From positions 1-64,000 of the forward strand of contig PUQB01000771.1 of assembly GCA_003024785.1 (NCBI GenBank): a stretch of DNA of 64,000 bases, in the 5' to 3' direction. The position numbers and the translations under genes are program-made. The notes under the pieces were generated by a model. It ran no database searches. It saw nothing but the letters and a program-made list of their open reading frames with translations, and had not been told where the DNA came from. This DNA comes from Selaginella tamariscina. Taxonomy: Eukaryota; Streptophyta; Lycopodiopsida; Selaginellales; Selaginellaceae. Below are positions 1 through 64,000 of the stretch, in pieces (the stretch's first letter is position 1; the number at the start of each line of letters is the position of its first letter).

Positions 1-780
1 GCCGCCTATGCATGCCTTGCGCGGAATCGCGGGATTTATCCCGCCGCCATTGGCCTGTTGAAGGGCCTAGGCGGCGGGATTAATCCCGCCGATTCCGCAC
101 AGGCATTGGCGTCCGGCGGGATTAATCCCGCCGCCTAGGCCCGAGTGAAGGGCCTAGGCGGCGAGATTAATCCGCGTGTACCATGCCTGCGCGGAATCGG
201 GCGGGATTAATCCCGCCGCCAAAGGCCTGCCTGAAGGGCCTAGGCGGGGGATTAATCCCGCCGATTCGCATAGGGCATTGGCGTCCGGCGGGATTAATCC
301 CCCCTAGGCCTGAGTGAAGGGCCTGGCGCGGATTAATCCGCGCACGCATTGGCGAATCGGCGGGATTTCCCGCCGCAAGGCCTGAAGGCCTGGGGCGGGA
401 TTAATCCCGAGCCTTCAATGCCTGTTGGAGGAATGAATCCCGCCACCCTTCCTTTTTTCTCCATTGGTGAGTCGGACCAATCCCAAACGTTTCTGTCTGA
501 GACGTAGAAGGTTTACAACATACCAATGGAGGACTGGGAAGGGTGGCGAAATTCATTTAACCATCCCTTACATGGTGGGCGAGATTAATCCCGCCCCTTT
601 CTGGAGTCACTGAAGGGGTGTGCCAAATAAATCCTGCCCAGTTCTCTCTGAGACCGAGAAGGGTGGCAAGATTAATTCCGCACTCCCGTTCAAGGCCTCC
701 AGAAAGGTGGCGAGATTAATCCCGCCCACTCTTTCAGGAGGCATTGAAGGGGTGGCGAGATTAATCCCGGCACCTTCCAT
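1..780. repeat. Left terminal palindromic array
   Basis: The stretch is packed with the perfect 18-bp palindrome GGCGGGATTAATCCCGCC and near copies, roughly ten of them, set in a higher-order unit of about 165 bp; for example, the segment around CATTGGCGTCCGGCGGG recurs near 106 and 268. GCCTAGGC and GATTCCGC are further shared motifs. Towards the inside the palindromes degrade to GGCGAGATTAATCCCGCC and are spaced by AAGGGGTGG-type spacers. The same array appears in reverse complement at 63430-64000, with matching order of unique landmarks such as CCAATCCCAAACGTTTCTG. It is therefore the outer end of an inverted-arm element. The window edge cuts it, so its true outer limit is not visible. Confidence 0.9.
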
Positions 781-801
781 GTGAATATATATGTGTATTA
801 G

Positions 802-810
802 TATATATAA
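802..810 (+). promoter_or_regulatory. TATA-like box upstream of the ParB-methyltransferase gene
   Basis: TATATATAA lies between the terminal array and the first coding exon. The same bases occur at the equivalent place of the right arm on the minus strand. Its position suggests the promoter of the long gene, but no start site can be shown from sequence. Confidence 0.3.
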
Positions 811-883
811 GTTGCATATCTCATTTTATTTACTTTTATCATCTTATCATAATATTTCGAGTAAAAGCTAGGAATCTATGTAA

Positions 884-970
884 AACTGTCCAGAGCTCAC
901 ATTTGTGGTGGTTCTAAAACGAAATGTTATCTTTCTTTTGCACTAGCACAAATGTGAGCTTTGGACAGTT
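884..970 (+). repeat. Hairpin with 24-bp arms in the 5' leader (left arm)
   Basis: The arms at 884-907 (starting AACTGTCC) and 947-970 (ending GGACAGTT) pair over 24 bp with one mismatch around a 39-nt loop. The right arm carries the same hairpin at 63246-63332. It sits between the array and the first exon and may be a folded leader, a small-RNA precursor or a small internal element end. Confidence 0.8.
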
Positions 971-1112
971 AATTCCGTCCACTTCTCTCTGTGTATTATT
1001 TTTGTATATTCGGGTTTATACAAGTGTGTGTGCGTTTTTATATGATTTGTATTCATAGTGTATTATTTTGCAGAAGGACGATTTAATTAAACAAGGAGAT
1101 CGAGTCATTAGT

Positions 1113-4100
1113 ATGGAGTCGTCGTCAAATTCTGGGTAAGAATTAAAATAAAATCTGTTATACTCGGATATGTTTGAACTAATCATTTTTGTATTCAGAT
1201 GTGGAATTGAGGTGACATTAAGACGAGAGCAGGAGAAGAGATGGGCAGGGGGATTCTGGAATCAACTTGGCCATATTTCAAACTAAACGGGAAGCGCATT
1301 GGAACAACCATGGTTGCTGTCAAACTAACCTCTGTCACATCGCATGGACAAGCAAAACAATGGAAAGTGGGTGTGCTAGTCAAGCATCCGAAAGCATGCT
1401 GAACCCAGATTGAACGATGCTCGACACATATGCCTTGTTCCATCCAATGTCACGTTCTCGGATCCAGAGGTCGCCAGTTACAACATTAATTTCGGGTGGT
1501 TTTGTCGACTTGTGGATAATGACGTTCACGTGTTCACTAATGATGTTGACCTGGAGTTCTTCTTCAACTCAACGAAAGCCCATCTATGGAGGGGATCCAA
1601 CTGGATGTCTACTTCGAAGATCTTCAGACTCATCGAGTAGGTGTATTCAGCAGAGATTGCTTCACAATACAGAAAATCACAAGTGGAGCAATCGTCCCTC
1701 TTCACATTGAAGAAGAACACAGCGACATCATAAGGAGATTGAGAGGGTGGCTTGGTCTCAGGTTCTTTACAGATCACGTTCAATTTGCTTAGAAATTTCG
1801 GGAGCTGGAAGAGTGTGCCGAGAACATTAGAACAGCATCAATCGGGGATCACACATGTTGATTCGGATCGTAGAAGAAAATCATCATCGTTTTGTCAGCT
1901 GCACCTGTGGCATCCATGCTGCAATAAGCCACAAGGAAATGATGTTGGATGATAGATTTACGAGTGTAGGGTTAAGTATTGCAGCGTCAACCCAAACTTC
2001 AATTACAGGCCACTCAACCAGGAACGTGTAGCTGAGCTCATGGAGAAGATGAAGGACGACAATTCTTACACCGTTCCACATAATGCTGTTTTGTGCGCAT
2101 ACTACGAGAAACAAAGGCGCTGACAAAGTGTGGATCACAACACCAGAACAAATGAGGAAGGTTCAGACGGAGAATAAAAATCATCAAGTACTACATCATT
2201 AGTGGCCAGCACACAATAACGGCAGCCCAACGACTTCTCGACGAACACAACAAAGGAACGATGGCAACAAAACTTTCCGAGCATACCCGTGAGAAGCTGA
2301 CGAAAAGATCGGCGTTTTTAGCAAAGCCGAATCTCACAATCGAGCAGTACCATAAGTTATCGGCGGAATGGGACGCTGCAGACACCAACCACTACAACAG
2401 CAAAATATGGGAGAAGTTCAAACACACGCGAGCCGTGTGGGAATCTCTTCAGCGACCACAAAGAGCTACCGCAGGAATACACAATCTGCGGACTACCGGG
2501 TAAGCAAATTGTTTGGGCGGGATTTATCTCGCCGGTATATTAATCTCTTTTTTTCAGAGAGTTGAAGAAATTGTAGCAGTTGATTTTGCCCAGGTGGGCG
2601 GGAAGGAAACATCCTTTTTGATGATGTTGATTTCTTGTCCCGAGGATAGGATCTTTGCCAAATGGTTGGGGATTATGGAATCCTTTGCAAAAGGAACACT
2701 GAAGAAGAAGCAGACAAGTGAAGGGAGCCCTCAGAAAGTCTGCAAAGAAACCCAGTAAGACGCCGAAGGCTAAGTCTGTTCAATCTATAAAGGATGTAGA
2801 CAACGATTTCAAGCTCACATGGTTGAAGCCTTTAAATGGAACAACGATGGAGGAGATGGAAGTCTTGGCTGATTTGGTGATTGATGGCAAATTACAAATT
2901 AACAACAGCAGCCCACCTCTCCTTTTCATCTCAAGGCAATGGAGTTGAAGACGGTCAGGCACTTCAAGGAGTGGTTGGGAATACACTGCCACAAACTGGG
3001 TTGGACCTCGGCTTCAACATACGAAGAGGTCAGCAAATATTTGCATGTGACAAATGATGATATGCTTGTCGAATGGGTGAATCAATCGGAAGATCTGGGC
3101 AAGAATCTATTGCACGCCAACGCCAAAAGGAGAACATTGGATGACGCCTTCTCTTATGGCAGTCCTTCAGCAGCGGAGAACCGAGTTGAACCTTATAAAG
3201 GAGGATGCTACGAATCACGACAAGCCCTACAGATGTTTGTTGTTGGATTCGGAGACTTTATGGGGTACCATCACTGCTTGTAGGAAACCGTTTCAATTGT
3301 TCGTGATGGATCGGCGGGTGTCAAAAAATCCTTCGACAGACAGGACATAGAGGATTTGGTGGAGAAACTTAGCCGTGCAAGCATGTACAAAGAAGGTATT
3401 TATTATTGAATTCATACTTGCACTCTTGACTGATATCTACGTTTTCAGGTATTTATTTCTTGATTCTTGCTCATGTCACCGATACCTTTGCCTTCGCCTT
3501 TGCCAAGAGGAATAAATCGTTGGACAGGATTTTATATGAATGATGCTGATCCGAAGTGCATTGATTCGGTTGTTCACTTGGTTGTTAGGAATGCGCCAAA
3601 CAATTTCAAACTTCCAAATGACTGGCCAGGCATCTGTTTGCACTCCAACGGCCCTGAACCTCCATCCGATACACCGATAGGTGAGAGTGACGTATTCGGC
3701 AATGTACGTTATCCAAACATTACAAGTCAAGCGGCACGGAGCATCGTCAACTTGATCAGGGTCCTCACAGTGATGCGTGGGTTTTTGACTACTGCACTAG
3801 GGGGTCCGTCTTGAAGGAGTGTTACCTTCGGCATACATGTGTGTTTGCCGTTGAAAAGGATAAGACCATGGTTGAGGACCTGAACAAGTGGATAGATAGG
3901 TTCTCAACTGATACCCAACGAATCCATAAAGGAGTATTTGAGAAAGTTCCCTCCCGATAAGTGCGATAGCTCTGAAGACGAATCTGGTTCAATGTCGGAG
4001 TCTGAGGACGAACTTCAATCAGATATTAGACCGGAAGTTATCTCGAGGAGTACAGAACATTCACACTCCATTACCCATGGAAACATCAATAGAAGATAGA

Positions 4101-4188
4101 AGATCTTGAACCATCTCACAAGCGGCTTAGACCTTCTTCGCCTCACTCAGAAGGTAATAGCGAAGAAGAATTGTTAATGAGTTCTTAG
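1113..4188 (+). pseudogene. ParB-like / methyltransferase-like fusion gene, left-arm copy
   Basis: This is the left-arm copy of the long element gene described in full at 60003-63105. The exons judged from GT-AG borders shared with the other arms are 1113-1135, 1199-2499, 2558-3395 and 3449-4188. The start ATG at 1113 opens exon 1 (MESSSNSG) and the stop is TAG at 4186. The ParB-like part lies around 1960-2270 and the methyltransferase-like part around 3150-3900. The C-terminal tail is acidic and Ser-rich. Several frame disruptions not shared with the right arm (for example near 1400, 2110 and 3520) mean this copy is no longer one continuous reading frame. One frame change near 1790 is shared with the right arm. 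An AATAAA follows at 4258. The copy looks like a recently decayed duplicate. Confidence 0.7.
2516..2533 (+). promoter_or_regulatory. Terminal-array palindrome inside an intron (left arm)
   Basis: The 18-mer GGCGGGATTTATCTCGCC, two bases off the terminal palindrome, lies inside the 58-nt intron 2500-2557 of the ParB-like gene. The identical 18-mer is in the same intron of the right arm. It may be a binding site or a trace of how the intron arose. Confidence 0.7.
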
Positions 4189-4296
4189 AGTGACGAATAG
4201 TTGTAAATGAGTGTAACATAAGGCATTTTTGTATATTTCGTTTATATTTGTACAGAAAATAAATTCTCAAGGATTAATGAAGCTTTTAGTTCAAAC

Positions 4297-5433
4297 ATGG
4301 GTCACACATTAACAAGGTAAATAATATACCTTGATAATTTTAAGGTCAGCTAATTATCATTTTGCAGATGTAATGAAACAATTGAGAACATGGATTTTCA
4401 GCATTGCATGAGGTAAGAGAGGGGTTTGGCGACAATTTCTTGTGCCACATGTCAGAATGACAGAGTTCATGCAGGAAATGGATAATAATGCAGCTCAAAA
4501 CATCGTTACCATGGGGGCCACTTCAGTTTTTTCATCATCATTTTTATTGGCTTCAGTTCCGAAATCAATTTCTTCAGCGCATGCAATATCTGAATCTTGT
4601 AAGGATGATGTACAATTAAATGATGAAGGGATAGGCAACGAGATAGTGGCAACGGATAAATGTGAAAGGGAGCAAACAAGTGATTTGCAAAGTATTCAAG
4701 AGGCAACGCTATCCATGTTACTCATGGCCATATTGTGTTGTTGGATGTCAATGGTGTTCTGCTTCATCGACAAAGGCCCGAGGATAGGAAAAAAGAAATC
4801 AAACAAGGAGATTTCATTCCTTGTCATGGTAAATTTCGATATGATATATTATTTTTCGTCCAGGGTTGGATCGTCTCTTTCAAAAGCTTAAGGAGATGGG
4901 TGCGCTTGTGGGGATTTGGTCATGCATGCAGATTCATAACTTAACACCGCTGTTGAATTTGCTTAAGAAACATTGTAGTGTTGCAGAAGAGGTGATTCGT
5001 AAAGATTGGAACGAATATGTTATAAACCTCTCGAATTTCACAATATAAGAAAGGAAAGCAAGCCATACTTCTTCAAGAATGAAAGAATAATTGGGACTCA
5101 TGGGGAGATCAGTCGCTTAAGGATAATGAAGAACGCACAGATGTTAGTGTAGACGACTCTCCTCAGAAGGCTATGCTAAAAACATTGCTTGTATTCATCC
5201 AATCACTTTCGATCCATATTCTGATACTGATATTATGGATGAGCTAGTGAATTACTTGGATACGTGCTCAGAAAGAAGAATCTCGAAAATTTTGTGAGCA
5301 GTATCCACCGTATCAAACATTTCCTGAAGCTTTTCTTTTCGTGATTTTGAATTTTATAAAATGAAGGATAGCAACCGGGCACTTTATAATATTATTCTTA
5401 AGGAACGTCATTCTTTAGACGAGCCTTTATGCA
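4297..5433 (+). pseudogene. FCP1/SCP1-type HAD phosphatase gene, left arm, 3' end displaced
   Basis: Exons begin at 4297-4316 (ATG GGT CAC), 4368-4412 and 4475 onward, each with GT-AG borders kept in the other copies. The coding part shows the HAD motif I LLDVNGVLLHR, the following FIPCHGKFRYD segment and the GALVGIWSCMQIHN strand. The reading frame is disturbed more than once. Homology to the other copies stops sharply at 5433, in the codons after DEPLC. The missing 3' end is found at 17593-18059 in reverse orientation, and the two pieces abut with no loss. That fits an inversion of about 12.6 kb rather than a deletion. See 58558-59891 for the protein description. Confidence 0.7.
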
Positions 5434-5682
5434 TGATTTATAATGATAGTGTTGTTGCTTTCTTCCCCAATAAGACAACCCAATGTCAAAGAATTGGTTT
5501 AGCCTCTAATTATGCTATAAATTACTTGAATAACTTCTTGTGATCTACTAACACCAATTATAGTATGGACTATTGGGTGTCAAAAGGCTCTCTACTACAT
5601 GAAAATTCAAGTCTTAGTTTAATTTGTCTTAGTAACCAAATTGGCATTAACAAATCTAATGGATATTTGAAAAACACTATCA

Positions 5683-6215
5683 TAACCTTTTCCTCTCCTC
5701 TTAAGCCAACTAGGCAAAGGGCCAATTGGTGTTTATGAGAGGGCCCCAAGTCATGATAACCCGGGTTTGCTTGAGTCTTTTGCCCACATATTCTATAATC
5801 TTTATTCAAATAGTCAACCCACCATGTTAAAATTATGACACTCTTCACCCATTTGAGAAAGTGGATGCCTTCATCCACAAACTCAAGGGTTGCTACTATG
5901 CCTTCCTCCAGAAGGCACAGCTTAGAGGCGTTTCTACTTATGCATAGCTCGCACCTAGCTTAGAGGTGATCCACACATTGTGCGATCGCATATCTATAAT
6001 CGTATCACATGTCAATCAGGCCAAAGGTGATCTCATATATGCATGGCTGTACACATGTGATCGAGGGGTTTAGTTAGGCAAGAACAAGTGTGCCAACCTT
6101 AGTGGCCTAAGCTTTACTCACAAGTTCACCTCTGATGTAAATCGAACTTGGGACCGCTCTGATACCAATTGGCCCTTTGCCTAGTTGGCTTAAGGGGAGA
6201 GGAAAGGTTGTGACA
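5683..6215 (-). mobile_element. Relic LTR-end with tRNA-iMet primer-site motif, flanked by a 50-bp inverted repeat
   Basis: On the minus strand TGGTATCAGAGC, the classic primer-binding motif complementary to plant initiator tRNA-Met, follows directly after a sequence ending in GGGCCAAT near 6175. A second copy of the preceding 50 bases (AAGCCAACTAGGCAAAGGG core) lies at 5683-5735 in the opposite orientation. This is an old, broken LTR-retroelement fragment; no coding part is recognisable. Confidence 0.45.
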
Positions 6216-7139
6216 TTTGGGTGATGACTCTGGAAGGTCACTTGTTGACTCTTCAAGTTAAAACCTCTGACAAACACGAACCTTGTGCAAATGATAATGG
6301 ACTTATTATATCCTTCCCTAGATTGTAACGCACAAGGAGTTCACATTTGAGATGTGTATGTAGTATTTGTGCATTGAAAGGGTTTCTTTTATTATTAAAT
6401 TCTATATGTGTAGGTGTAAAAGTTTTTAGGTTAGGTTAACCAAGGCATGGGAAGGATTTTTTTCTTGTGAATACAATAGGTGAGTAGTTTTATTAAATGA
6501 ATAAGGATGTATATGTAATGTTATAAGATGGAGAGAGTGATGACTCAATGTTAATTCATATGAGGGTGTAGATTGCATTGCATGAGCACAATGTTGCTCA
6601 AAGCTGCAATTTGCTCAAGATTTGGGATATGCAATTTTTCTAGAATGTCCAATCGATCTCTCTCCCTTTTCTTTCTTCCTTCCCACGCTGGAGTCAAAAT
6701 CTACTAGTAAATCTCTGTATTTAATTCATGTGGGCAAATGCATGTTATAATTGTAGAATATAACATATACACATGATAGATAATGAGTATTTCATTGACA
6801 TTTTATAAGTGTGAAAGACGGTTTTATGTGTGAAGGCAAATAAGAAGCAATGCGTGGACAATCTCAAGTATATAAAAATTATCATAATACTTACTGCGTA
6901 CTCACATTAATCATGGTTTGTTCGCCGGCCGCTATAAATTTTGACATATTTATTGTTAAATTAAAAATATGTACTTTTAATTTATTTTTCTTATATATGA
7001 ATATATACAATTAATGTGATCTATTGGAATATGGTTGCAATCTTTTAAACCATTATTAATATTTTATTAATAAATATGAAACTATGGAAAGAGTCAAATT
7101 AATGAATATATAATACATATAAACATGCAGCATTATATA

Positions 7140-7141
<2 letters not shown>

Positions 7142-7196
<55 letters not shown>
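7142..7196. repeat. TA/TG dinucleotide microsatellite
   Basis: An uninterrupted TA run passes into a TG run. Simple sequence only. Confidence 0.95.
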
Positions 7197-9009
7197 TGAT
7201 GTACATGTTATCAAATATTTGTATATGCATCTTAACATTTTACTTTGGTTTCATAATGATATGGTATTTAATATATTAAACTTTGTTTTATCTAATATGA
7301 AAGTGCTTTATCATTTTCAATATTAACTTGTTTTACTTATGAAATCTATGTATTTCCTATTGATAAAAGAGGGTCAATGTGGTTCACGAAGAGGTAACAC
7401 ATTGCCATGTATGCGTCTCTGTCATGAAGAGTAACTGCATAATAACTCTCATATAAACAAGATTTTGAGAGCCTTCTTAGATTGGTACAAGTGTGTGTGT
7501 GTTCGGTGTGCATGTGTACGTATGGATCTATTTGAATAAGTATAGAACATAACATAGTATTTATCAAAGTTCACACACACACACACAATATGAATTGTTA
7601 TTAATCATTATTAAATGTAGGCACTCAATAAACCCCAAGGAAATATGCGAGTTTTTTGGATTCATATTTTCAATTTTCGCTTGCAAAGATGTATGTAGCA
7701 AAGTACAAACAACATTCACAAATTAGAGTGGCCAAGAGTGTTGGATTGCCTATCGGCAATGTTTTTGGTTACAAGTACATATGTGTCCTTGTATATGTGT
7801 GCATGCATGTGTGTGTGAGAGAGAGACACACAATTCTTATATAATGTACACACACAAACACATATGTAACATATATACATCTTGTTTGACTTGCTTAGGC
7901 AAGCAAAGGCTAAAGCTGTAAGAAATAGAGTCACTGGAGTTTGTGGAGAATGTTCCAGATGTTGTGCATGCTCCAATAGCACTAGATTGATCATAAGAGG
8001 CATTTAAGAAGCTTAAGTAGGTTAGTAAGAAGCATTAATAAGCGATTAATTCAAGACAAACTAGAAAAGATGGTCACAAAATAACAAGGTATTAACATGT
8101 GTGTTAATAAATTTTATTTATTTTATGTATTTCAGATTTAAACAAAAAGAAAAATGTGTGTAAAAAAAGTAGGTAACCATGGTGAGTATATATACATTTT
8201 GCACTTGTTTAATTTAATAAATTTTATGATACTAAGGCATTATAAGTAATTAAAATGGGTATGTAATAGTCCCAATAATTATTTAATTAACATTTTTTAA
8301 TATTAAAAAATATTCTCTAGAATAATATATATTCAAGGAAAGAATATTCTTTAAAATGTATGTTTAAAGACAAAATATTCTTTAGAACATTTATTTTTAT
8401 AATTGACTCTTTAATAGAAGAAGACTTACATGCCATTAGGAAGGTGTTTGACATACACATATGCATTTCATTATTAACTCTTTAAGCTTGAAAAAGATTA
8501 TATGGGCCTAATATAAAAGTTATTAAAGAGCATGAGAGGTACATTATATAATTTTTATGTTGTTATTAAAATATTAATATTTAATTATAATTATGAATAT
8601 TAAATATACTATATTTTGTAATTGTTTTAAACTTCAAAATATATGCATTTTTTTTACAGTTTTGTTTTCTGTGACTTTATCAACACTTCTTAACATCCAC
8701 TCATATCGAATGGATTTAACATTTATAAAGCATGCTGGGTCTTTTTAATTGGGAGACCATGTTTTCCTTAGGTATCTATTGTACCTTTTGCTCTCTTTCT
8801 CATGTTGTTTTTTTTTACGGTTTGAACCATGCAATCTTTATCATATTGTTTTTTTTTTTTTTTTTTTTTTAATGATTTCAGGTGTGTCGATAATTTAACC
8901 CATCCAAATAAATTATTTATATGACACATCTAAAGTAATGAGTACGATCATTAATTTTTGAAAATCTTTGTAACAATCAAAGTATGATTTAGATTTTTAG
9001 TACTTTGTC

Positions 9010-11180
9010 CAATAAAGTGTAGGGTTTGTGTCATCTGCATTCATTAATGTGGTTTCAATCTCCTCCCACCACCTTGTTTTAGGCCAAAAAGAGTTTTGTA
9101 ATTGTGACAACAGGCCCTTTTAACTCTTGAACAACAGTCTCTCAATATTCGACCACATGCTTATATAGTATTAAGTAACCAATCGCCTTATCGAAATTCT
9201 TTGGCATTGATGTTTGAACCATGTCACATACTTTTTGATGCCATTAATAATAAGCTTTTGTTCCTTGAATTGTGCACTCAATGGAATATGGTTTGGTTGT
9301 CATTCTAAGAGAAGTGGCTTTTCATACTATCCACCTTTGAAGAGCATTAAGCCCTTTTTGAGTAACCATTCCTATTATGATGGTCATAACTTGTATTACA
9401 TAATAGGTATACCATCTCTTGTGGAGAAGAAGAACTATAGTGGCACAAGATGATCAGTTAAAGAATTGCTCCCTTCTTTGATATACTTCTTAAGAAACTT
9501 TTTGAAGTCTGGCACCTTAATCATAAGCAAAGCACAATTTTTTTTTAAAATGCAATTTTCAAAAAGATCCATCATATGTGGTAAGGTAAGTGCACTTGTT
9601 CGTTTTGTAGAGTTGGAGACCTTGCTGAAAAATGCATCAATATTCTCACGAGTGTGACCAATCATAAGGAAACTGAGCATGATTGTCTTAAACACACATT
9701 TGGCAACAAACATTAACAAGTATGCTAGTACGTATTTAGAAAATAAAAGTAAGTATGAACTTAAAAAACCCTTAACTGAAATGATTTACCTATTTTTGTT
9801 CTTGCTTGCACAATTGTCCATTTATAAAAACAAATGATGAGGAAACTTATTTGATGTTAACAACACTTGTACCTTATCTGAGCCAGATCTCTCTATTGAA
9901 CTAGAACATGGCCATCTATTTTTTGTGCATGATGTTGACAGTGCTTCTCACATTCCCAAGTAGCCTCAAGTGCAAACGTGTTCATGAGAGCATTGTGTAA
10001 AGGTTGAAAGTGTTGTTTCTTCACTTTGAGATCACCCATAGGACTTGTTTGTGAGTGGGCTTCAAGGTTTTTAAAACACATGGCTAACGACCCAATAGTG
10101 AAATTGGAGTCGCTAGATGAGTGTGGAAGTGAAAAGTGTCTATATGATTCACAATCGTGTCCATGTGTTTATCAATGAAACCGGAAGTTTCATGACATTT
10201 CCAAAACACTTTAATGTTACAACTAGTTTTGGAATGCTAATCTTTGAATGATCCATCTTGTTGTGAATCAAGCACATGTATCTAATGGGTATGACACAAA
10301 AAGTATGCGGTGTGCATAGTACTAAGATTGGCAAGTTTGTTGTGCAATCATGTGGGCCTCCATCTTCTTTTGAATGACAGTGATCTCCACCAAGGTTTTT
10401 GCACAAGCCTCTGTAACCTTCAGTGATATACAAGTGTCACACTTGGAAAAGCTAGAATGTTTTGCAATCTCTACATCCTTAAATTGAGTATTCCATATGT
10501 TGTTGAAGGTATCGGTGCAAATTGTTTGGAGCCCCATCAAATTGAGGCACTTGTTTACATGTTCACACAACTTTAATGAAGTGTATATTGAAGGCAAAAC
10601 CTTGAGATTTTTCCTGACCCTGCATTTGTGATATAGCATTTATGAGGCATCCTATCTACATTTGCCTCCACAAACTTCTTTAGTATCTCTATGGCTGCCA
10701 TAATGTGAGAGAAGGTTTTGACCAAGTGAGTGTTCCCATGTGCTGAGGTGCATACTCCATTCAACCACTCGTCCCTTCGATGGTATAACATGGTCTTTAG
10801 TATCCCGTATAACTTTGATAACTTGTGTCCAAGGCCATTCTATCAATACACCCAATTAGTGCAGCATATATAAACTCATGCCTTTGCTTGTGAGTGAGCT
10901 TACAAAAGACATGTCTACATTGGGTTTTTATTCCAATTTGCCATTTGACAACACTTCTTCTTACAACAATCAATTGTGGAGACGCTGGCAATGCTTGCCA
11001 AAGATGTGGGATCCATCTTGACCCTCTTGTCAGAACTTGTTGGAGTCAATTTGCAGCACATGAATCTCCTTTTTCTTATTATAGGACTAATGCAAGGAAC
11101 CTCTTCAAACATGGTTGCCTTCCAGGTTGTTACTATTGTAATTCAACTTTGGATATGTTGAACCATCTGGCTGTTTTAGT
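9010..11180 (-). pseudogene. DUF7869-type transposase-like gene relic
   Basis: Read on the minus strand, separate short frames give the signature segments of a plant and protist transposon protein family, in the expected order. First is a Cys cluster DCCKKKCC near 10980. Then comes FNNIWNTQFKDVEIAKHSSF followed by SKCDTC near 10470-10540, then MCLIHNKMDHSK near 10260, then FLMIGHTRENIDAFFSKVSN near 9620-9680, and a C-terminal SFWPKTRWWEE near 9080. I recognise the GHT-x-E-x-ID pattern as that of the DUF7869 class of RNase H-like, transposon-associated proteins; the family name is from memory. The frame is broken many times, so this is a dead copy. It lies within the segment proposed as inverted (5434-18059), so its original orientation relative to the element may have been plus. 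It is the only transposase-like gene seen that might have moved a DNA element here. Confidence 0.6.
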
Positions 11181-11650
11181 TTAGATGTTTGCCACCTCAC
11201 AAGAAATCTAGGATGTAATGTGCCATTTGGTGAAACCTCTGTCACAACTCTACACCCACAAAGTATGCCCTAGTGTCTTTTATAATATAGCTTTCATTGG
11301 ATTGACAATTGAGATGATGCCCCTTTCAACCTCGGTCTCATGGAGAAAGAATCATGTAAGCCATCATCTTGTGAACTTGTATTAATTTTTGTTTGTGACT
11401 ATGCATTTTTTATATCAGCCTTGACTTCATTCACATTCCACAATATAGAAGAACCCTTTTCAAATTCCATTTCAGGAACCTCAACATGCTTGTAAATGGT
11501 GTTCACATAAATGTACACATAAGACCCTTGGGCAATATTATAACATGATGCATTATCATCTCAAACTTTTGGTTCTAGTGCCAATTATTTCATTGTTCCA
11601 GAGAAGATATACTTTATCTCCAATATTAAACATATTGACCTGCACATAAA
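11181..11650. other. Interval without a supported gene
   Basis: It may hold decayed N-terminal sequence of the transposase-like relic on the minus strand, but no motif can be read with confidence. Confidence 0.4.
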
Positions 11651-11659
11651 TATTTGTGT

Positions 11660-12480: not shown

Positions 12481-12504
12481 GAAATTTAAGATGAGTTATT
12501 TAAT

Positions 12505-12610
12505 GCATTTAACATTAACAATTAATTCATTGTCATGGATTTCATAGTTGATCTCCGTAGTCATGAACTTGCACGAGTGAAACGCTACAAAGTGTAGATC
12601 ATCAAAAGTC
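12505..12610 (-). mobile_element. Short Ty3-type RNase H fragment
   Basis: The minus strand reads [20 protein letters not shown], a close match to the RNase H segment of the Ty3 elements further right. It is only about 100 bp: an old broken fragment with no LTR visible. Confidence 0.6.
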
Positions 12611-15720: not shown

Positions 15721-15729
15721 CACTATCAG

Positions 15730-54007: not shown

Positions 54008-54510
54008 TGTCAAGCCACGATCCAGGAACCATGAAGCAAGTAGGATTCCGAGAACAGGAAGGCTTGACTCAGGAACAGGACCGAGAGCAGGACAGGAACT
54101 AGGAACAGGAACAGGACGGATCCAAGAACAAGACAGGATCCGGGAGCAAAACAGGAGTAGGAGGCAAAGAGTAAGACAAGAACAAGACAAGAACAAGGAA
54201 CAAGAATAATCGTAGAATGACTGGTGTTGATTGTAACTGATTGTACAACAATTAGGTCGGAGCTTTTATGCTCACAACTCCAAGCTAATCTGGTCATGAG
54301 CCTAATCTAGTCACTAGCCAAAATTGGTCATCCTTATCCTATAGGAATATCCTGTAGGAATATCCTGCGGGAATATCCTGTGAGAATATCCTGCGGGAAT
54401 ATCCTGTGGCATATCCTGTGGGAATATCCTGCGGGCCGAAATCCTGTATCGCATATCCTGTAGGCTGAATCCTGTATGTCGTATCCTGTATCCTGTATCG
54501 GGTCGTGACA
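54008..54510 (-). mobile_element. Ty3 chromovirus LTR, minus strand
   Basis: TGTCAAGCCACGATCC ... GGGTCGTGACA, about 500 bp, forming the right border of the retrotransposon block. The ParB-methyltransferase gene resumes at 54511. Confidence 0.85.
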
Positions 54511-55509
54511 GGAGGATGCTACGAATCACGACAAGCCCTACAGATGTTTGTTGTTGGATTCGGAGACTTTATGGGGTACCATCACTGCTTGTAGGAAATC
54601 GTTTCAATTGTTCGTGATGGATCGGCGGGTGTCAAAAAATCCTTCGACAGACAAGACACTAGAGGATTTGGTGGAGAAACTTAGTCGTGCAAGTATGTAC
54701 AAAGAAGGTATTCATTATTGAATTCATACTTGCACTCTTGATTGATATCTACGTTTTCAGGTATTTATTTCTTGATTCTTGCTCATGTCACCGATACCTT
54801 TGCCTTCTCCTTTGCCAAGAGGAATAAACATCATTGGACAGGATTTTATATGAATGATGCTGATCCGAAGTGCATTGATTCGGTTATTCACTTGGTTGTT
54901 AGGAATGTGCCAAACAGTTTCAAACTTCCAAATGACTGGCCAGGCATCTGTTTGCACTCCAACGGCCCTGAACCTCCATCCGATACACCGATAGCTGAGA
55001 GTGACGTATTCGGCAATGTACGTTATCCAAACATCACAAGTTAAGCGGCACGGAGCATCGTCAACTTGATCAGGGGTCCTCATAGTGATGCATGGGTTTT
55101 TGACTACTGCACTAAGGGGTCCGTCTTGAAGGAGTGTTACCTTCGGCATACATGTGTATTTGCTGTTGAAAAGGATAAGATCATGGTTAAGGACCTGAAC
55201 AAGTGGATAGATAGGTTCCCAACTGACTACCCCAACGAATCTATAAAGGAGTATTTGAGAAAGTTCCCTCCCGATAAGTGTGATAGCTCTAAAGACGAAT
55301 CTGGTTCAATGTCGGAGTCTGAGGACGAACTTTAATCAGATATTAGACCGGAAGTTATCTCAAGGAGTACAGAACATTCACACACTCCATTACCCATGGA
55401 AACATCAATAGAAGATACAGAAGATCATGAACCATCTCACAAGCGGCTTAGACCTTCTTCGCCTCACTCAAAAGGTAATAGCGAAGAAGAATTGTTAATG
55501 AGTTCTTAG
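54511..55509 (+). pseudogene. ParB-methyltransferase gene, centre-right arm, 3' half
   Basis: It starts inside exon 3 at GGAGGATGCTACGAATCACG, keeps the GTATTC...TTTTCAG intron (about 54708-54760) and runs through the motif I-like region (DAWVFDYCTKGSVLKECYLR) to the stop at 55507. The exon 4 part is close to intact. The ParB half is lost to the retrotransposon block. Confidence 0.8.
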
Positions 55510-55617
55510 AGTGACGAATAGTTGTAAATGAGTGTAACATAAGGCATTTTTGTATATTTCGTTTATATTTGTACAGAAAATAAATTCTCAAGGATTAATG
55601 AAGCTTTTAGTTCAAAC

Positions 55618-56961
55618 ATGGGTCACACATTAACAAGGTAAATAATATACCTTGATAATTTTAAGGTCAGCTAATTATCATTTTGCAGATGTAATGAAAC
55701 AATTGAGAACATGGATTTTCAGCATTGGCATGAGGTAAGAGAGGGGTTTGGCGACAATTTCTTGTGCCACATGTCAGAATGACAAAGTTCATGCAGGAAA
55801 TGGATAATAATGCAGCTCAAAACATCGTTACCATTGGGGCCACTTCAGTTTTTTCATCATCATTTTTATTGGCTTCAATTCCGAAATTAATTTCTTCAGC
55901 GCATGCAATATTTGAATCTTGTAAGGATGATGTACAATTAAATGATGAAGGGATAGGCAATGAGATAGTGTCAACGGATAAATGTGAAAGGGAGCAAACA
56001 AGTGATTTACAAAGTATTCAAGAGGCAACGCTATCCCATGTTACTCATGGCTATATTGTGTTGTTGGATGTCAATGGTGTTCTGCTTCATCGACAAAGGC
56101 CCGAGGATAGGAAAAAAGAAATCAAACAAGGAGATTTCATTCCTTGTCATGGTAAATTTCGATATAATATTATTTTTCGTCCAGGGTTGGATCGTCTCTT
56201 TCAAAAGCTTAAGGAGATGGGTGCGCTTGTGGGATTTGGTCATGCATGCAGATTCATAACTTAACACGCTGTTGAATTTGCTTAAGAAACATTGTAGTGT
56301 TGCAGAAGAGGTGATTCGTAAAGATTGGATTTTTGACCAGCGAATATGTTATAAACCTCTCGAATTTCACAATATAAGAAAGGAAAGCAAGCCATACTTC
56401 TTCAAGAATGAAAGATTAATTGGGCTTCATGAAGAGATCAGTCGCTTAAGGATAATGAAGAATGCACATATCTTAGTAGTAGACGACTCTCCTCAGAAGG
56501 CTATGCTCAACCAAAACATTGCTTGTATTCATCTAATCACTTTCGATCCATATTCTGATACTGATATTATGGATGAGCTAGTGAATTACTTGGATACGTG
56601 CCTCAGAAAGAAGAATCTCAAAAATTTTTCTGAACAGTATCCACCGTATCAAACATTTCTTGAAGCTTTTCTTTTTCGTGATTTTGAATTTTATAAAATA
56701 AAGGATAGCAACCAGGCGCTTTATAATATTATTCTTAATTCTTTAGATGAGCCTTTATGCAGACCTGGTCTTATTACATCTTATGTATTAACAAGGATGG
56801 CAACTCCCAATTGCATTCGTGAGAGTGTTAGGTGGTGGCAACAACATCAAAATATTGACCAAAATGATTTGATTAATCTGGAGAGTGATGATTTAAACAA
56901 AATGAGGAGATTTCTCTGTATGGTTAGGAAGAAAGTATTTATAAATAAATTAACATGTTGA
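55618..56961 (+). pseudogene. HAD phosphatase gene, centre-right copy
   Basis: The exon pattern and start ATG (55618) are as in the other arms. Motif I reads GYIVLLDVNGVLLHRQRPED and motif III ILVVDDSPQKAMLNQN. One local frame change near 56230-56270, where bases are missing relative to the left arm, separates the two halves. Otherwise this is the best-kept 3' half, ending KKVFINKLTC. A few codons are missing after NIIL compared with the right arm. Confidence 0.75.
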
Positions 56962-57231
56962 TAAGAAATGATTTCATTTGTAATTATGTTTGATAGTATT
57001 TCTTCATTATTGTAAACTATTTTTAGAATAATATGAATATTCTAAGATAGTTTAGGAATATTCCTTACTAAGTAAGGTTATTGAAGGATTAATTATATAA
57101 TTAATTAATATTTAAGGCTTAATTACATATTAATTAAATGATTAATTAATAATTAAAACTTAAGTATTAATTATTAATTTATTTTATATTCCCATTTTCA
57201 CGTATCATGCCCACTTTAGTTACAACGTGCA
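56962..57231 (+). repeat. AT-rich tail and inner boundary, centre-right arm
   Basis: It ends with the reverse complement of TGCACGTTGTAACTAAAG at about 57214-57231. The sequence beyond is not shared with other arms. Confidence 0.8.
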
Positions 57232-58270
57232 TGTAACTTGTATCCATTGAATCGTGTAGTATCCATCTAAGCACATCTCACATATAGAGTATAAGCACAC
57301 ATGCACACATAATATTAAAATGTCATAGATATAGAAAGAAAGATAGTAAATCATATTAATGGATCAAATAAAAACAAAAAACTTTTTGCTATGTTTTTTA
57401 AGTTTTAATACTTAAAAACCATATTAAATTTCACTTCACAATATCAATGTTGTATATGGTGTCAAATAGTCATTTCCAAATGGACCTAAAGCATATTATT
57501 GTATTAAAAAGAAAACTTACAATTAGCTTGTTGAAAATGAGTTTTGACATCCAAAATAGGATCATTATGCTCAACATTGCTAATGCAAACAAAAACTTAT
57601 GAAATCATTTCCATATCATTTTGGAGAAGAAAAAATTGTAACATTAAATATATTCATTTTGTTCATTTTCATATAATTAAATCATTTTTAAAATTGGGAT
57701 AACTTCGCCTAGAAGTCCTTAAAAATTTGCATGAGCAGGTTGATGATTGTTAGAATTCCTTACATTGATGATCTATTAATTAATTATAATTTTCAAAACA
57801 CATTCTATTGAGTAATTATTATAATTAATGAGATATATAATCATGTCTTCAAACCTACTTTACATGATGTGAAACTAGCATGAATAATGTCAAACCTTCT
57901 CCCATCTTTTTTGTCTTATAGATATCTTATAGGTCACTAAAAGACACTAAAATGTTAAGAGTACTATTTCAAAAAAATTATATTATGTGGCAATACAATT
58001 GGGATGTGTTTGTTGTGTATGGATTTATTTAAATGCATCAAAATAACAATAATTACAAGAGAAAACGTACAACAATGCCTTGAAAATCCACACATTATGA
58101 TAAAAAAAACTTGAATAGGCTCTACACGTCGGGAGATGCAACAGCTCCTATCATAACCATAATCTCATCAATGACTTGTTCAGTTTTAAACCCCTTCTTC
58201 CTCGTCATGACAACTATGTCTATAACAAAAAAATCCGTTAAGGATAATAAACCTTGATTATCTAGCTTAA
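57232..58270. other. One-kilobase interior of element B, no gene seen
   Basis: AT-rich and unique in this window, lying between two oppositely oriented inner boundaries. No frame of interest. Confidence 0.6.
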
Positions 58271-58557
58271 TGCACGTTGTAACTAAAGTGGGCATGATAC
58301 GTGAAAATGGGAATATAAAATAAATTACTAATTAATACTTAAGTTTTTAATTATTAATTAATCATTTAATTAATATGTAATTAAGCCTTAAATATTAATT
58401 AATTAATTAATTAATCCTTCAATAACCTTACTTAGTAGGAATATTCCTAAAATATCTTAGAATATTTATATTATTCTAAAAATAGTTTACAATAATGAAG
58501 AAATACTATCAAACATAATTACAAATGAAATCATTTTCTTATCAACATATTAATTTT
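58271..58557 (-). repeat. Inner boundary and AT-rich tail, right arm
   Basis: It begins TGCACGTTGTAACTAAAG, then a TTAATTAATT-rich tail, and serves as the 3' flank of the phosphatase gene. Confidence 0.8.
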
Positions 58558-59891
58558 TTATAAATACTTTCTTTCTATCATACAAAGAAATCTCCTCATT
58601 TTGTCTAAATCATCACTCTCCGGATTAATCAAATCATTTTGGTCAATATCTTGATGTTGTTGCCACCACTTAACACTCTCACGAATGCAATTGGGAGTTG
58701 CCATCCTTGTTAATACATAAGATGTGATAAGAGAAGGTCTGCATAAAGGCTCATCTAAAAACTGACGTTCCTTAAGAATAATATTATAAAGCGCCCGGTT
58801 GCTATCCTTCATTTTATAAAATTCAATATCACGAGAAAGAAAAGCTTCAGGAAATGTATGATACGGTGGATACTGTTCACAAAAATTTTTGAGATTCTTC
58901 TTTCTGAGGCACGTATCCAAGTAGTTCACTAGCTCATCCATGATATCGGTATCAGAATATGGATCGAAAGTGATTGGATGAATACAAGCAATGTTTTGGT
59001 TGAGCATAGCCTTCTGAGGAGAGTCGTCTACTACTAAGATATGTGCATTCTTCGTTATCCTTAAGCGACTGATCTCCCCATGAGTCCCAATTATTCTTTC
59101 ATTCTTGAAGAAGTATGGCTTGCTTTCCTTTCTTATATTGTGAAATTCGAGAGGTTTATGACACATTCGCTGGTCAAAAATCCAATCTTTACGAATCACC
59201 TCTTCTGCAACACTACAATGTTTCTTAAGTAAATCAACAGCGGTGTTAAGTTATGAATCTGCATGCATGACCAAATCCCCACAAGCGCACCCATCTCCTT
59301 AAGCTTTTGAAAGAGACGATCCAACCCTGGACGAAAAATAATATCATATCGAAATTTACCATGACAAGGAATGAAATCTCCTTGTTTGATTTCTGTTTTT
59401 CTATCCTCGGGCCTTTGTCGATGAAGCAGAACACCATTGACATCCAACAACACAATATGGCCATGAGTAACATGAGATAGCGTTGCCTCTTGAATACTTT
59501 GCAAATCACTTGTTTGCTCCCTTTCACATTTATCCGTTGCCACTATTCGTTGCCTATCCCTTCATCATTTAATTGTACATCATCCTTACAAGATTCAGAT
59601 ATTGCATGCGCTGAAGAAATTGATTTCGGAACTGAAGCCAATAAAAATGATGATGAAAAACTGAAGTGGCCCCCATGGTAACGATGTTTTGAGCTGCATT
59701 ATTATCCATTTCCTGCATGAACTCTGTCATTCTGACATGTGGCACAAGAAATTGTCGCCAAACCCCTCTCTTACCTCATGGCAATGCTGAAAATCCATGT
59801 TCTCAATTATTTCATTACATCTGCAAAATGATAATTAGCTGACCTTAAAATTATCAAGGTATATTATTTACCTTGTTAATGTGTGACCCAT
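58558..59891 (-). CDS. FCP1/SCP1-type HAD phosphatase-like protein, right arm
   Basis: Three exons are supported by GT-AG borders kept in all arms: 59872-59891, 59775-59820 and 58558-59712, about 406 codons in all. The first ~100 residues are Ser/Asp-rich. A HAD domain of the NLI-interacting-factor type follows. Motif I is IVLLDVNGVLLHR (nucleophile Asp, with the second Asp replaced by Asn, as I recall from plant relatives with DLNG), then FRPGLDRLFQKLKEMGALVG and IWSC, and motif III ILVVDDSPQKAML. The C-terminal part has KWWQQHQDIDQNDLI. Known members of the family remove phosphate from Ser/Thr-rich tails such as that of RNA polymerase II; the Asp-to-Asn change makes activity uncertain. One frame change near 59200-59235 splits this copy. 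It lies on the same strand as, and about 110 bp after, the ParB-methyltransferase gene, and in no copy seen is it separate from it. Confidence 0.7.
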
Positions 59892-60002
59892 GTTTGAACT
59901 AAAAGCTTCATTAATCCTTGAGAATTTATTTTCTGTACAAATATAAAAGAAATATACAAAAATGCCTTATGTTACACTCATTTACAACTATTCATCACTC
60001 TA

Positions 60003-63000
60003 TCAATTCATTATCAATTCTTCTTCGCTATTACCTTCTGAATGAGGCGAAGAAGGTCTAAGCCGCTTGTGAGATGGTTCAAGATCTTCTGCATCTTCTA
60101 TTGATGTTTCCATGGGTCCTGGAGTGTGCGAATGTTCTGTACTCCTCGAGATAACTTCCGGTCTAATATCTGATTGATGTTCGTTCTCAGACTCCGAGAT
60201 TGAACCAGATTCACCTTCAGAGCTATCGCACTTATCTGGAGGGAACTTTCTCAAATACGCCTTTATGGATTCGTTGGGGTACTCAGTTGAGACCCAATCT
60301 ATCCACTTGTTCAGGTCCTCAACCATGGTCTTATCCTTCTCAACGGCAAACACACATGTATGCCGAAGGTAACACTCCTTCAAGACGGACCCCCTAGTGC
60401 AGTAGTCAAAAACCCACGCATCACTGTGAGGACCCCTGATCAAGTTGACGATGCTCCGTGCCGCTTGACTTGTAATGTTTGGATAACGTACATTGCCGAA
60501 TACGTCACTCATACCTATCGGTGTATCGGATGGAGGTTCAGGGCCGTTGGAGTGCAAACAGATGCCTGGCCAGTCATTTGGAAGCTTGAAATTGTTTGGC
60601 GCATTCCTAACAACCAAGTGAACAACGTATCAATGCACTTGGGATTAGCATCGTTCATATAAAATCCTGTCCAACGATGTCTATTCTTCTTGGCGAAGGC
60701 GAAGGCAAAAGTATCGGTGACATGAGCAAGAATCAAGAAATAAATACCTGAAAAAGTAGGTATCAGTGAAGAGCGCAAGCATGAATTCAATAATAAATAC
60801 CTTCTATGTATATGCTTGCACGGCTAAGTTTCTCCACCAGATCCTCTAGTGCCCTATCTGTCGAAAGATTTTTTGACACCCGCCGATCCATCACGAACAA
60901 TTGAAACGGTTTCCTACAAGCAGTGATGTTACCCCATAAAGTCTCCGAATCTAACAACAAACATCTGTAGGGCTTGTCGTGATTCGTAGCATCCTCCTTT
61001 ATAAGGTTCAATTCGGTTCTCCGCTGCTGAAGGACTGCCATAAGAGAAGGCGTCATCCCAATGTTCTCCTTTTTGGCGTTGGCGTGCAATAGATTCTTGC
61101 CTAGATCTTCCGATTGGTTCACCCATTCGACAAGCATATCATCGTTCGTCACATGCAAATATTTGCTAACCTCTTCATATGTTGAAGTCGAGGTCCAACC
61201 CAGTTTGTGGCAGTGTATTCCCAACCACTCCTTGAAATGCCTGACCGTCTTCAACTCCATTGCCTTGAGATGAAAAGGAGAGGTTGGGCTGCTGTTATTA
61301 ATTTGTAGTTTGCCATCGATCACCAAATCAGCCAAGACTTCCATCTCCTCCATCGTTGTTCCATTTAAAGGCTTCAACCATGTGAGCTTGAAATCGTTGT
61401 CTACATCCTTTGTAGATTGAACAGACTTAGCCTTCGGCGTCTTACTGGGTTTCTTTGCAGACTTTTCTGAGGGCTCCCCTTCACTTGTCTGCTTCTTCTT
61501 CAGTGTTCCTTTTGAAAAGGATTCCATAATCCCCAACCATTTGGCAAAGATCCTATCTTCGGGGCAAGAAATCAACATCATCAGAAATGATGTTTCCTTC
61601 CCGCCCACCTGGGCAAAATCAACTGCTGCAATTTCTTCAACTCTCTGAGGAAAAAGACAGATTAATATACCGGCGAGATAAATCCCGCCCAAACAATTTG
61701 CTTACCCGGTATTCCGCAGATTGTGTATTCCCTGCGGTAGCTCTTTGTGGTCGCTGAAGAGATTCCCACACGGCTCGCGTGTGTTTAAACTTCTCCCATA
61801 TTTTGCTGTTGTAGTGGTTGGTGTCGGCAGCGTCCCATTCCGCCGATAACTTATGGTACTGCTCGATTGTGAGATTCGGCTTAGCTAAAAACGCCGATCT
61901 TTTTGTCAGCTTCTCACGGGTATGCTCGGAAAGTTTTGTTGCCATCGTTCCTTTGTTGTGTTCATCGAGAAGTCGTTGGGCTGCCGTTATTGTGTGCTGG
62001 CCACTAATGATGTAGTACTTGATAGATCTTTTATTCTCCGTCTGAATCTTCATGAGTTGTTCTGGTGTTGTGATCCAGACTTTGTCAGCACCCTTCCTTC
62101 TTTCATAGTATGGACACAAAACAGCATTATGTGGAACGGTATAAGAATTGTCGTCCTTCATCTTCTCCATGAGCTCAGCTACACGTTCCTGGTTGAGTGG
62201 CCTGTAATTGAAGTTTGGGTTGACGCTGCAATATTTAACCCTACAAGGATAAATCTTATCATCCAACATCATTTCCTTGTGACTTATTGCAGCATGAGAT
62301 GCCACAGGTGCAGCTGACAAAACGATTGATGATTTTCTTTTGCGATCCGAATCAACATGTGTGATCCCCGACTGCAGCTGTTCTAGTGTTCTCGGCACAC
62401 TCTCCAGCTCCCGAAGCTTCCTAAGCAAATTGAACGTGATCTGTAGAGAACCTGAGACCGAGCCACCTTCTCAATCTCCCTTATGATGTCGCTGTGTTCT
62501 TCTTCAATGTGAAGAGGGAAGATTGCTCCACTTGCTGATTTTCTGTATTGTGAAGCAATATCTCCTGACAATACACCTACTCGATGAGTCTGAAGATCTT
62601 CGAAGTAGACATCCAGATGGATCCCCTCCATAGATGGGCTTTCGTTGAGTTGAAGAAGAACTCCAAGGTCAACATCATTAGTGAACACGTGAACGTCATT
62701 ATCCACAAGTCGACAAAACCACCCGAAATTAATGTTGTAACTGACGACCTCTGGATCCGAGAACGTGACATTGGATGGAACAAGGCATATCTGTCGAGCA
62801 TCGTCCAATCTGGGTTCGCAGCCTGCTTTCGGGTGCTTGACTAGCGAATCTACTTTCCATTGTTTTGCTTGTCCATGAGATGTGACAGAGGTTAATTTGA
62901 CAGCAACCATGGTTGCTCCAATGCGCTTCCCATTTATCTTAAAATATGGCCAAGTTGATTCCAGAATCCCCCTGCCCATCTCTTCTCCTGCTCTTGTCTT

Positions 63001-63105
63001 TAATGTCACCTCAATTCCACATCTGAATACAAAAATGATTAGTTCAAGTATCCGAGTATAACAGATTTTTTTTAATTCTTACCCAGAATTTGACGACGAC
63101 TCCAT
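60003..63105 (-). CDS. ParB-like / DNA methyltransferase-like fusion protein, right arm
   Basis: The exons are 63083-63105, 61706-63022, 60801-61644 and 60003-60747, about 976 codons. Residues 1-215 form a conserved N-terminal part I do not recognise. Around 270-355 is a ParB N-terminal fold: PLNQERVAELMEKMKDDNS, then YYIISGQHTITAAQRLL, with GQH-T standing for the usual G-x-H-R box. A Lys-rich linker (EKSAKKPSKTPKAK) near 500 may be a nuclear signal. From about 640 comes a beta-class amino-methyltransferase-like fold: YRCLLLDSETLW at the place of DPPY, and AWVFDYCTRGSVLKE with VFAVEKD at the place of motif I. Both catalytic motifs are altered, so DNA binding without catalysis is likely. The tail (last ~70) is acidic and Ser-rich with SHKRLRPSS. 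The frame changes once near 62430, also in the left arm, and once near 60628, only here. Confidence 0.6.
61672..61689 (-). promoter_or_regulatory. Terminal-array palindrome inside an intron (right arm)
   Basis: On the minus strand GGCGGGATTTATCTCGCC lies within the 61-nt intron 61645-61705 that joins the ParB-like exon to the next exon in phase 0. Confidence 0.7.
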
Positions 63106-63245
63106 ACTAATGACTCGATCTCCTTGTTTGATCAAATCGTCCTTCTGCAAAATAATACACTATAAATATAAATATAAAAAACGCACACACACTTGTATAA
63201 ACCCGAATATACAAAAATAATACACAGAGAGAAGTAGACGTAATT

Positions 63246-63332
63246 AACTGTCCGAAGCTCACATTTGTGTTAGTGCAAAAGAAAGATAACATTTCGTTTT
63301 AGAACCACCACAAATGTGAGCTCTGGACAGTT
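63246..63332 (-). repeat. Hairpin with 24-bp arms in the 5' leader (right arm)
   Basis: The arms at 63246-63269 and 63309-63332 match the left-arm hairpin. The single mismatched pair is kept (A opposite C or A), and the stem is otherwise complete. Confidence 0.8.
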
Positions 63333-63429
63333 TTACATAGATTCCTAGCTTTTACTCGAAATATTATGATAAGATGATAAAAGTAAATAAAATGAGATAT
63401 GCAACTTATATATACTAATACACATATAT

Positions 63430-64000
63430 ATTCACATGGAAGGTGCGGCGGGATTAATCTCGCCACCCCTTCAATGCCTCCTGAAAGAGTGGGCGGGATT
63501 AATCTCGCCACCTTTCTGGAGGCCTTGAACGGGAGTGCGGAATTAATCTTGCCACCCTTCTCGGTCTCAGAGAGAACTGGGCAGGATTTATTTCTCACAC
63601 CCCTTCAGTGACTCCAGAAAGGAGGCGGGATTAATCTCGCCCACCATGTAAGGATGGTTAAATGAATTCCCACCCTTCCCAGTCCTCCATTGGTATGTTG
63701 TAAACCTTCTACGTCTCAGACAGAAACGTTTGGGATTGGTCCACTCACCAATGGAGAAAAAGGAAGGGTGGCGGATTCATTCTCCAACAGGCATTGAAGA
63801 CTCGGCGGGATTAATCCCGCCGCCCAGGGCCTTCACTCGGTCCCTATGCGGCGGGATTAATCCCGCCGGACGCCAATTCCCTGCGCGGAATCGGGCGGGA
63901 TTAATCCCGCCGCCTAGGCACTTCAGGCAGGCCAATGGCGGCGGGATAATCCCGCCCGATTCCGCACAGGGAATTGGCGTCCGGCGGGATTAATCCCGCC
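63430..64000. repeat. Right terminal palindromic array
   Basis: The inverted partner of 1-780. The inner units read GGCGGGATTAATCTCGCC, the outer units the perfect GGCGGGATTAATCCCGCC, with the same landmarks (AGAGAGAACTGGGCAGG, CAGACAGAAACGTTTGGG). It runs off the window edge inside a palindrome, so more units are likely outside. Confidence 0.9.

Follow-up and report, generated by a model that had tools for sequence, protein, structure and literature searches.

Introduction

Transposon-borne ParB-methyltransferases have been reported in brown, green and red algae, where, according to the proposal in section 5 of the report, these accessory proteins bind the transposon that carries them and mark it; no target sequence is named there (PMC12477816). 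VANC21, part of the VANC/VANDAL21 anti-silencing system of Arabidopsis, binds a 9-base motif that is arrayed in the non-coding DNA of the element, including the introns of VANC21 and VANB21 (PMC5735166). Nicking endonuclease activity has been reported for the ParB domain of Bce_0392, and DdrB-like ParB domains have a conserved active-site arginine (PMC5512222). Here, we describe a 64,000-nt stretch of Selaginella tamariscina contig PUQB01000771.1 (the whole of which is called the window), which contains four copies, numbered by position, of an apparent mobile element. The element carries a gene for a possibly ParB-like protein (ORF1; ORF, open reading frame), a gene for a HAD-type protein (HAD gene) and arrays of an 18-bp palindrome, GGCGGGATTAATCCCGCC. 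A first-pass annotation, made from the sequence alone, had described the copies as arms of two composite elements, A and B.

Four copies with a common 3′ end

A BLAST self-comparison of the window bore out the four arms of identical gene order described by the first-pass annotation, with pairwise identities of 93–96%. Where the parts are visible, their order is palindrome array, ORF1, HAD gene, approximately 290 bp of AT-rich DNA and terminus. The sharp inner boundary that had been noticed was likewise found in all four copies when their 3′ ends were aligned: these are nearly identical through ...CACGTATCATGCCCACTTTAGTTACAA(C/T)GTGCAT and then diverge abruptly into four unrelated flanks. Variable columns number 3 in the last 100 and 14 in the last 150, compared with 137 of 1852 gap-free columns when all four copies are aligned. 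Because one common end adjoins four different flanks, as independent insertions would give, the view that ORF1 and the HAD gene are carried by a mobile element is well supported. The four letters TGCA, or five with the following T, are common to the terminus of all copies and may be part of either the element or its target, one end being in view; the 3′ end is the only end that falls inside the window in each of the four copies. The 27-letter terminus had no match in viral contigs. A Helitron was considered and rejected: Helitrons end in CTRR at the 3′ side, and the terminus reads ...CAA(C/T)GTGCA(T) in all four copies. A locally amplified host gene cluster, that is, a segmental duplication involving no mobile element, would agree with the presence of four copies within 64 kb and with the absence of a recognised transposase from the window, but it would not be expected to produce a common end next to four unrelated flanks, and we regard it as very improbable.

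All copies are decayed, every one having frame breaks or stops. Copy 1 stops at position 5433, and its remaining ∼470 bp sits inverted at 18059–17591. Since the displaced tail resumes within 1 bp of the break point (as judged by eye), an inversion of about 5434–18059 has probably split this copy. Among the singleton changes that distinguish the copies, 108 of 195 are C>T or G>A, which is in line with a decay of methylated DNA; only 20 of these 108 lie in a CG context, however.

Copies 2 and 3 lack their 5′ parts, and nested Gypsy long terminal repeat (LTR) retrotransposons stand there instead, in which gag, reverse transcriptase, RNase H, integrase and chromodomain were recognised on pieces of different units. 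The internal regions are arranged in direct order, about 5.6 and 7.2 kb apart, and minus-strand fragments of the same Gypsy family are present at both ends of this region (33434–54509). We rejected the idea that the Gypsy array arrived in one simple insertion event, the two junctions having no matching duplication and copies 2 and 3 having lost different parts.

The orientations of the four copies do face each other as the first-pass annotation had proposed for its two pairs (copies 1 and 2, and copies 3 and 4), but this agreement is one of geometry only. Pairing into elements A and B was not supported: the sequences enclosed by the two pairs measure about 25.6 kb and 1,037 bp and have no mutual BLAST match at an E-value of 1e-5. 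Among the 1852 columns shared by all copies, 16 are informative, of which 8 group copies 1 and 4 against copies 2 and 3, 7 group copies 1 and 2 against copies 3 and 4, and 1 groups copies 1 and 3 against copies 2 and 4. Thus, with unrelated spacers and informative columns split 8:7:1, no pairing is supported. For the model of two composite elements with facing arms and a cargo spacer between them, the alternating orientation of the copies and the 7 of 16 columns that fit it would speak in its favour; its spacers, however, have no sequence in common and one is about 25 times as long as the other, 8 of the 16 columns fit another pairing, and alternating orientation easily arises by chance. We consider this model very unlikely.

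A second model with paired arms reverses the geometry, taking the sharp ends as the outer termini of an inverted-repeat element whose two arms point away from a palindrome array at its centre. Copies 2 and 3 would then be the halves of one element whose centre was lost to the Gypsy array, and copies 1 and 4 would each represent half of a neighbouring element truncated by the edge of the window. Such an arrangement would account for the divergence of copies 2 and 3, which present the same terminus in inverted form, for the arrays that end both outermost copies at the window edges and for the TGCA palindrome at all four junctions, a possible 4-bp target duplication. By eye, however, no target duplication other than TGCA is seen next to copies 2 and 3, and the A spacers described below hold one orientation through the array of copy 1, leaving no mirror centre; the informative columns (8 for copies 1 and 4 with copies 2 and 3, against 7 for the pairing first proposed) are undecisive. 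We judge the model to be rather unlikely. Of the three layouts, we prefer single units over facing pairs and over diverging pairs that share an array at their centre.

Palindrome arrays

With up to 3 mismatches allowed, the 18-bp palindrome has 21 matches in the window, and 100 shuffles of the sequence gave none. Eleven matches are located beside copy 1 and 7 beside copy 4, 2 are intronic and 1 belongs to an older array. The arrays that had been described as extending outward from the arms are therefore present on copies 1 and 4 (28–771 and 63447–64000) but are not visible on copies 2 and 3, because Gypsy elements replace the 5′ parts of the latter. In the distal array, spacers A (∼27 bp), which keep a constant orientation, alternate with spacers B (∼24 bp), whose orientation flips (by eye). 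The site at position 326 has 6 mismatches to the consensus and yet pairs at 9 of 9 positions. Copies 1 and 4 each have a site in the same ORF1 intron, where it stands singly and not in an array. The viral contigs contained one stretch that matches the palindrome. Between the two sub-arrays of copy 4, at 63670–63771, there are inverted CCAAT-containing repeats with 25-nt arms, and copy 1 appears by eye to have the same.

An older, decayed array at 11789–12054 has spacings of 42–45 and 71 bp, and 300 shuffles gave at most 1 site. No ORF1 or HAD match was found near it. The DNA that flanks this array recurs, free of the array, at 12791–13335.

By analogy with the VANC/VANDAL elements, the palindrome array is a candidate self-binding site of the ORF1 protein. 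A serious rival, although on balance we find it doubtful, holds that the palindromes serve the host as sites for transcription factors or for replication, that they drive the genes and that ORF1 does not bind them; it is compatible with a mobile element. The proximal array ends, by eye, right before a TATA-like stretch, and the half sites of the palindrome, GGCGGGA, are close to the E2F core, both of which count for host sites. On the other side, the conserved core ATTAAT is not known to belong to the E2F consensus, and the palindrome inside the ORF1 intron fits self-targeting, but neither point is decisive.

ORF1 and the HAD gene

ORF1 is best preserved in copy 4, in which reading of the sequence predicts four exons and a 977-aa read-through product. 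The introns of the element are short and of the GT-AG type. Over 938 codons, copies 1 and 4 differ by 57.2 synonymous and 59.8 nonsynonymous changes, whereas the same changes placed at random gave a mean of 85.2 nonsynonymous changes and a minimum of 68 in 1000 simulations. The ratio of nonsynonymous to synonymous substitution rates (dN/dS) is 0.27 for copies 1 and 4 (937 codons), 0.35 for copies 1 and 3 (303 codons) and 0.41 for copies 3 and 4 (310 codons). These values indicate that purifying selection acted on ORF1 during most of the divergence of copies 1, 3 and 4, although all of them are now broken; copy 3, for example, has two in-frame stops. In copies 1 and 4, the presumed 5′ leader that separates ORF1 from the TATA-like stretch contains a hairpin of −48.9 and −42.4 kcal/mol, respectively, and none of 200 shuffles was as stable. 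Its form recalls the precursor of a small RNA or a very small foldback insertion. Scans for tRNAs (with bacterial settings) and Rfam families gave no match.

ORF1 had no match above chance level in Pfam, NCBIfam or PHROGs. We compared it by hhalign with profiles built from Spo0J and from the ParB-type proteins of eight phage loci, of which three are, judged by sequence, ParB-methylase fusions. Residues 225–448 scored above 20 of 20 shuffles with the ParB profile, at a probability of 19%. Residues 265–375 scored 27.2 in local and 20.8 in global mode, each above 40 of 40 shuffles, with E-values of 4e-4 and 6e-4 for a single comparison and probabilities of 35% (local) and 12% (global). For two control stretches, the score was reached by 2 of 20 shuffles each. 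The ParB-like DNA binding proposed by the first-pass annotation thus scored above all shuffles, but at low probability and with no match in the family libraries, and we regard a ParB-like domain in ORF1 as having modest support from profile comparison. Within this region, the motif GQHTITAAQRLL aligns with GHTRYKAAKKL; the Thr at the place of the Arg is also present in copy 1. If this Arg corresponds to the conserved active-site arginine of DdrB-like ParB domains, ORF1 may have lost nuclease or NTPase activity, which we no more than suspect.

For the HAD gene, the FCP1-type domain that had been named at the outset was confirmed: a composite 397-aa reading matched Pfam NIF (PF03031) with an E-value of 2.6e-12 and 47.1 bits, compared with a cut-off of 21.8. 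The score against NCBIfam TIGR02251 was only 16.4 bits, compared with a cut-off of 139.15. The catalytic motif of these enzymes is DxDx(T/V). In copies 3 and 4, it reads DVNG, the second Asp being replaced by Asn; phosphatase activity of the protein is therefore doubtful.

Proposed explanation

The explanation that we favour, with a confidence somewhat above even, is that the window contains four decayed copies of a single-unit mobile element in which ORF1 is a self-binding accessory protein. The element would be at least 5.6 kb long, as copy 4 is, and would consist of a single unit and not of paired arms. ORF1 would derive, as in the algal transposons, from the ParB-methylase fusions of phages and bacteria, and its methylase part would have lost its motifs. 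With its ParB-like domain or some other part, the protein would bind the palindromes of the element that encodes it, and this binding may keep the element transcribed or unsilenced, or may mark the element for transposition or assemble the complex that transposes it. Provided that it is active, the HAD protein would have chromatin or RNA polymerase II at the element as its target, and a transposase encoded outside the visible part or supplied by another copy would move the unit.

A more specific proposal likens the system to a ParB/parS pair: a ParB-derived protein with a dead methylase half, a binding platform made of the palindromes at the promoter and in the intron, and the HAD protein would together make up a module by which the element recognises itself and stays active in chromatin, possibly through an effect on RNA polymerase II at the promoter of the element. 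This proposal is tentative, and we think it more doubtful than not by a clear measure. The position of a palindrome array upstream of a candidate ParB gene, with a further site inside the gene, makes the idea of self-binding testable. If the ParB origin is true, the loss of methylase motifs under continued purifying selection would mean that DNA binding, and not methylation, is the function that was kept.

Several results weigh against the favoured explanation. With regard to mobility, no transposase was recognised in the window, and neither the 5′ terminus, which lies beyond the window or has been lost, nor a target duplication is in view there. With regard to the palindromes, they may be host transcription-factor sites, and some are degenerate, the sites at 160 and 359 pairing at 4 and 3 of 9 positions, respectively. 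With regard to selection, the dN/dS values of ORF1 that involve copy 2 are 1.15, 1.71 or undefined, over 51–53 codons only, and those of the HAD gene are 0.44–0.76 over six pairs, a weaker signal that was obtained without simulation.

The assignment of ORF1 meets further difficulties of the same bearing. The hhalign probabilities for ParB are no higher than 12–35%, and the tested region was narrowed after a first look. Structure predictions from single sequences had mean predicted local distance difference test (pLDDT) scores of 38.3 and 39.7 and yielded no usable fold. The methyltransferase fold that had first been proposed for ORF1 was not supported: Pfam gave no match up to an E-value of 10, and shuffled sequences reach the methylase scores. 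With the methylase profile, the score of residues 672–880 was reached by 15 of 40 shuffles in global and 29 of 40 in local mode, that of residues 820–880 by 2 of 40 and 39 of 40, respectively, and that of residues 664–930 by 18 of 20. If a methylase fold is present in ORF1, it lacks its motifs. Searches for relatives used candidates drawn from 5.8 billion proteins, a set that may be poor in plants; none was found for whole ORF1 among the 7996 candidates scored at an E-value of 1e-3, for residues 449–910 among 3739 candidates at an E-value of 1, or for the HAD protein among 1529 candidates at an E-value of 1.

Colinear methylase motifs that were seen in ORF1 by eye were dropped as evidence, the profile scores having given them no support. 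Furthermore, ORF1 had no relative in phages (tblastn) or among solved structures, the ParB-like ORF piece had no match in viral contigs, solved structures or prokaryote genomes, and the C-terminal ORF piece had none in viral contigs.

Other features of the window

The features are listed in Table 1. At 20443–20712, a fragment matches N6_N4_Mtase with an E-value of 0.0019 and 18.6 bits (Pfam cut-off, 26.7), and in the profile comparison 0 of 20 shuffles scored as high as the fragment; its tie to ORF1 is unproven. Acidic and basic stretches, recognised by eye, follow it at about 18900–18600. A direct repeat of ∼1.5 kb is present at 15744–17372 and 18974–20510, the two sequences being 73–79% identical in three pieces. 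On the minus strand, 21496–23020 contains the apparent remains of a second, older Gypsy-like element (by eye), two pieces of which were tested and had no Pfam match, and 12499–12735 has a weak match to reverse-transcriptase RNase H (E = 0.0015).

Table 1. Positions of the element copies, their parts and other features in the 64,000-nt window
Feature	Position	Strand	Basis or score
Copy 1, distal array; repeat units P-A-P-B / P-A-P-B′, each ∼87 bp	28–444	+	
Copy 1, main part	337–5433	+	BLAST self-comparison
Copy 1, promoter-proximal array, directly before TATA-like stretch	578–771	+	by eye (TATA-like stretch)
Copy 1, leader hairpin (presumed ORF1 5′ leader) with 35-nt arms	884–970	+	z −9.9
Copy 1, ORF1 (ParB-like gene), several frame breaks	1113–4182	+	
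Copy 1, palindrome in ORF1 intron	2516–2533	+	
Copy 1, HAD (NIF-type) gene, first part, cut at 5433	4457–5433	+	
Older decayed array, 6 sites with ≤6 mismatches	11789–12054	+	
Copy 1, last part of HAD gene and 3′ terminus, displaced, probably by inversion	17591–18059	−	
Fragment resembling part of DNA N6/N4 methylase, degenerate	20443–20712	−	
Copy 2, without its 5′ part where it adjoins the Gypsy array: ORF1 end, HAD gene, 3′ terminus at 31547	31547–33437	−	
Gypsy LTR retrotransposons, nested and chromodomain-bearing; three internal regions in direct order	about 33434–54509	+	
Copy 3: final third of ORF1 (to 55503), HAD gene (55779–56961), 3′ terminus at 57232	54510–57232	+	
Spacer between copies 3 and 4, 1,037 bp, no BLAST match elsewhere in window	57233–58269		
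Copy 4	58270–63889	−	BLAST self-comparison
Copy 4, HAD (NIF-type) gene and 3′ terminus at 58270	58270–59730	−	
Copy 4, ORF1, best preserved, four exons and two frame changes	60003–63105	−	
Copy 4, palindrome in ORF1 intron	61672–61689	−	
Copy 4, leader hairpin with 35-nt arms	63246–63332	−	z −8.6
Copy 4, promoter-proximal array	63447–63641	−	
Copy 4, distal array, continues past window end	63804–64000	−	

Comparison with known systems

The first-pass annotation knew of no named plant transposon family with this cargo, which may hold for plants, but transposon ParB-methyltransferases of algae are in print (PMC12477816). No plant element that combines ParB and HAD came up in our literature search, which had most subscription papers outside its coverage. 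As described in the algal report, Sola1-1_Ec32 of Ectocarpus resembles ORF1 in being a mobile-element protein of similar length (1104 aa, compared with 977 aa for ORF1) with which a possible ParB-like part would be shared (PMC12477816). In contrast to the algal proteins, ORF1 has no supported methylase, has a NIF-type HAD protein as its partner and lies beside a visible candidate target array; the element also differs from the algal transposons in having no recognised transposase in the window. Because a methylase domain has no support and the support for ParB is modest and indecisive, we do not file ORF1 as a ParB-methyltransferase accessory protein, although it may descend from, or work like, such a protein.

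The likeness to VANC and VANDAL21 of Arabidopsis consists in a short motif that is dense in non-coding DNA and introns and varies in repeat number (PMC5735166). The VANC21 motif, YAGTATTAY, is arrayed in one orientation and is non-palindromic, unlike the 18-bp palindrome (PMC5735166).

The ParB-like part of ORF1 has a weak profile match to the ParB-methylase fusions of phages and bacteria (L001, L002, L004 and Bce_0392). ORF1 differs from the phage fusions in its long N-terminal extension and middle part and in having Thr in place of the phage Arg (GHxR). Methylases are recognised by motifs named DPPY and FxGxG, and ORF1, unlike the fusions, has no recognisable example of either. The HAD protein matches nearly the whole domain of the NLI-interacting-factor/FCP1-type HAD phosphatases (PF03031), which have DxDx(T/V) where it has DVNG. 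The element is of a known kind, that of transposons with accessory DNA-binding proteins; its new features are the HAD partner and the array of an 18-bp palindrome, which is found again in the ORF1 intron.

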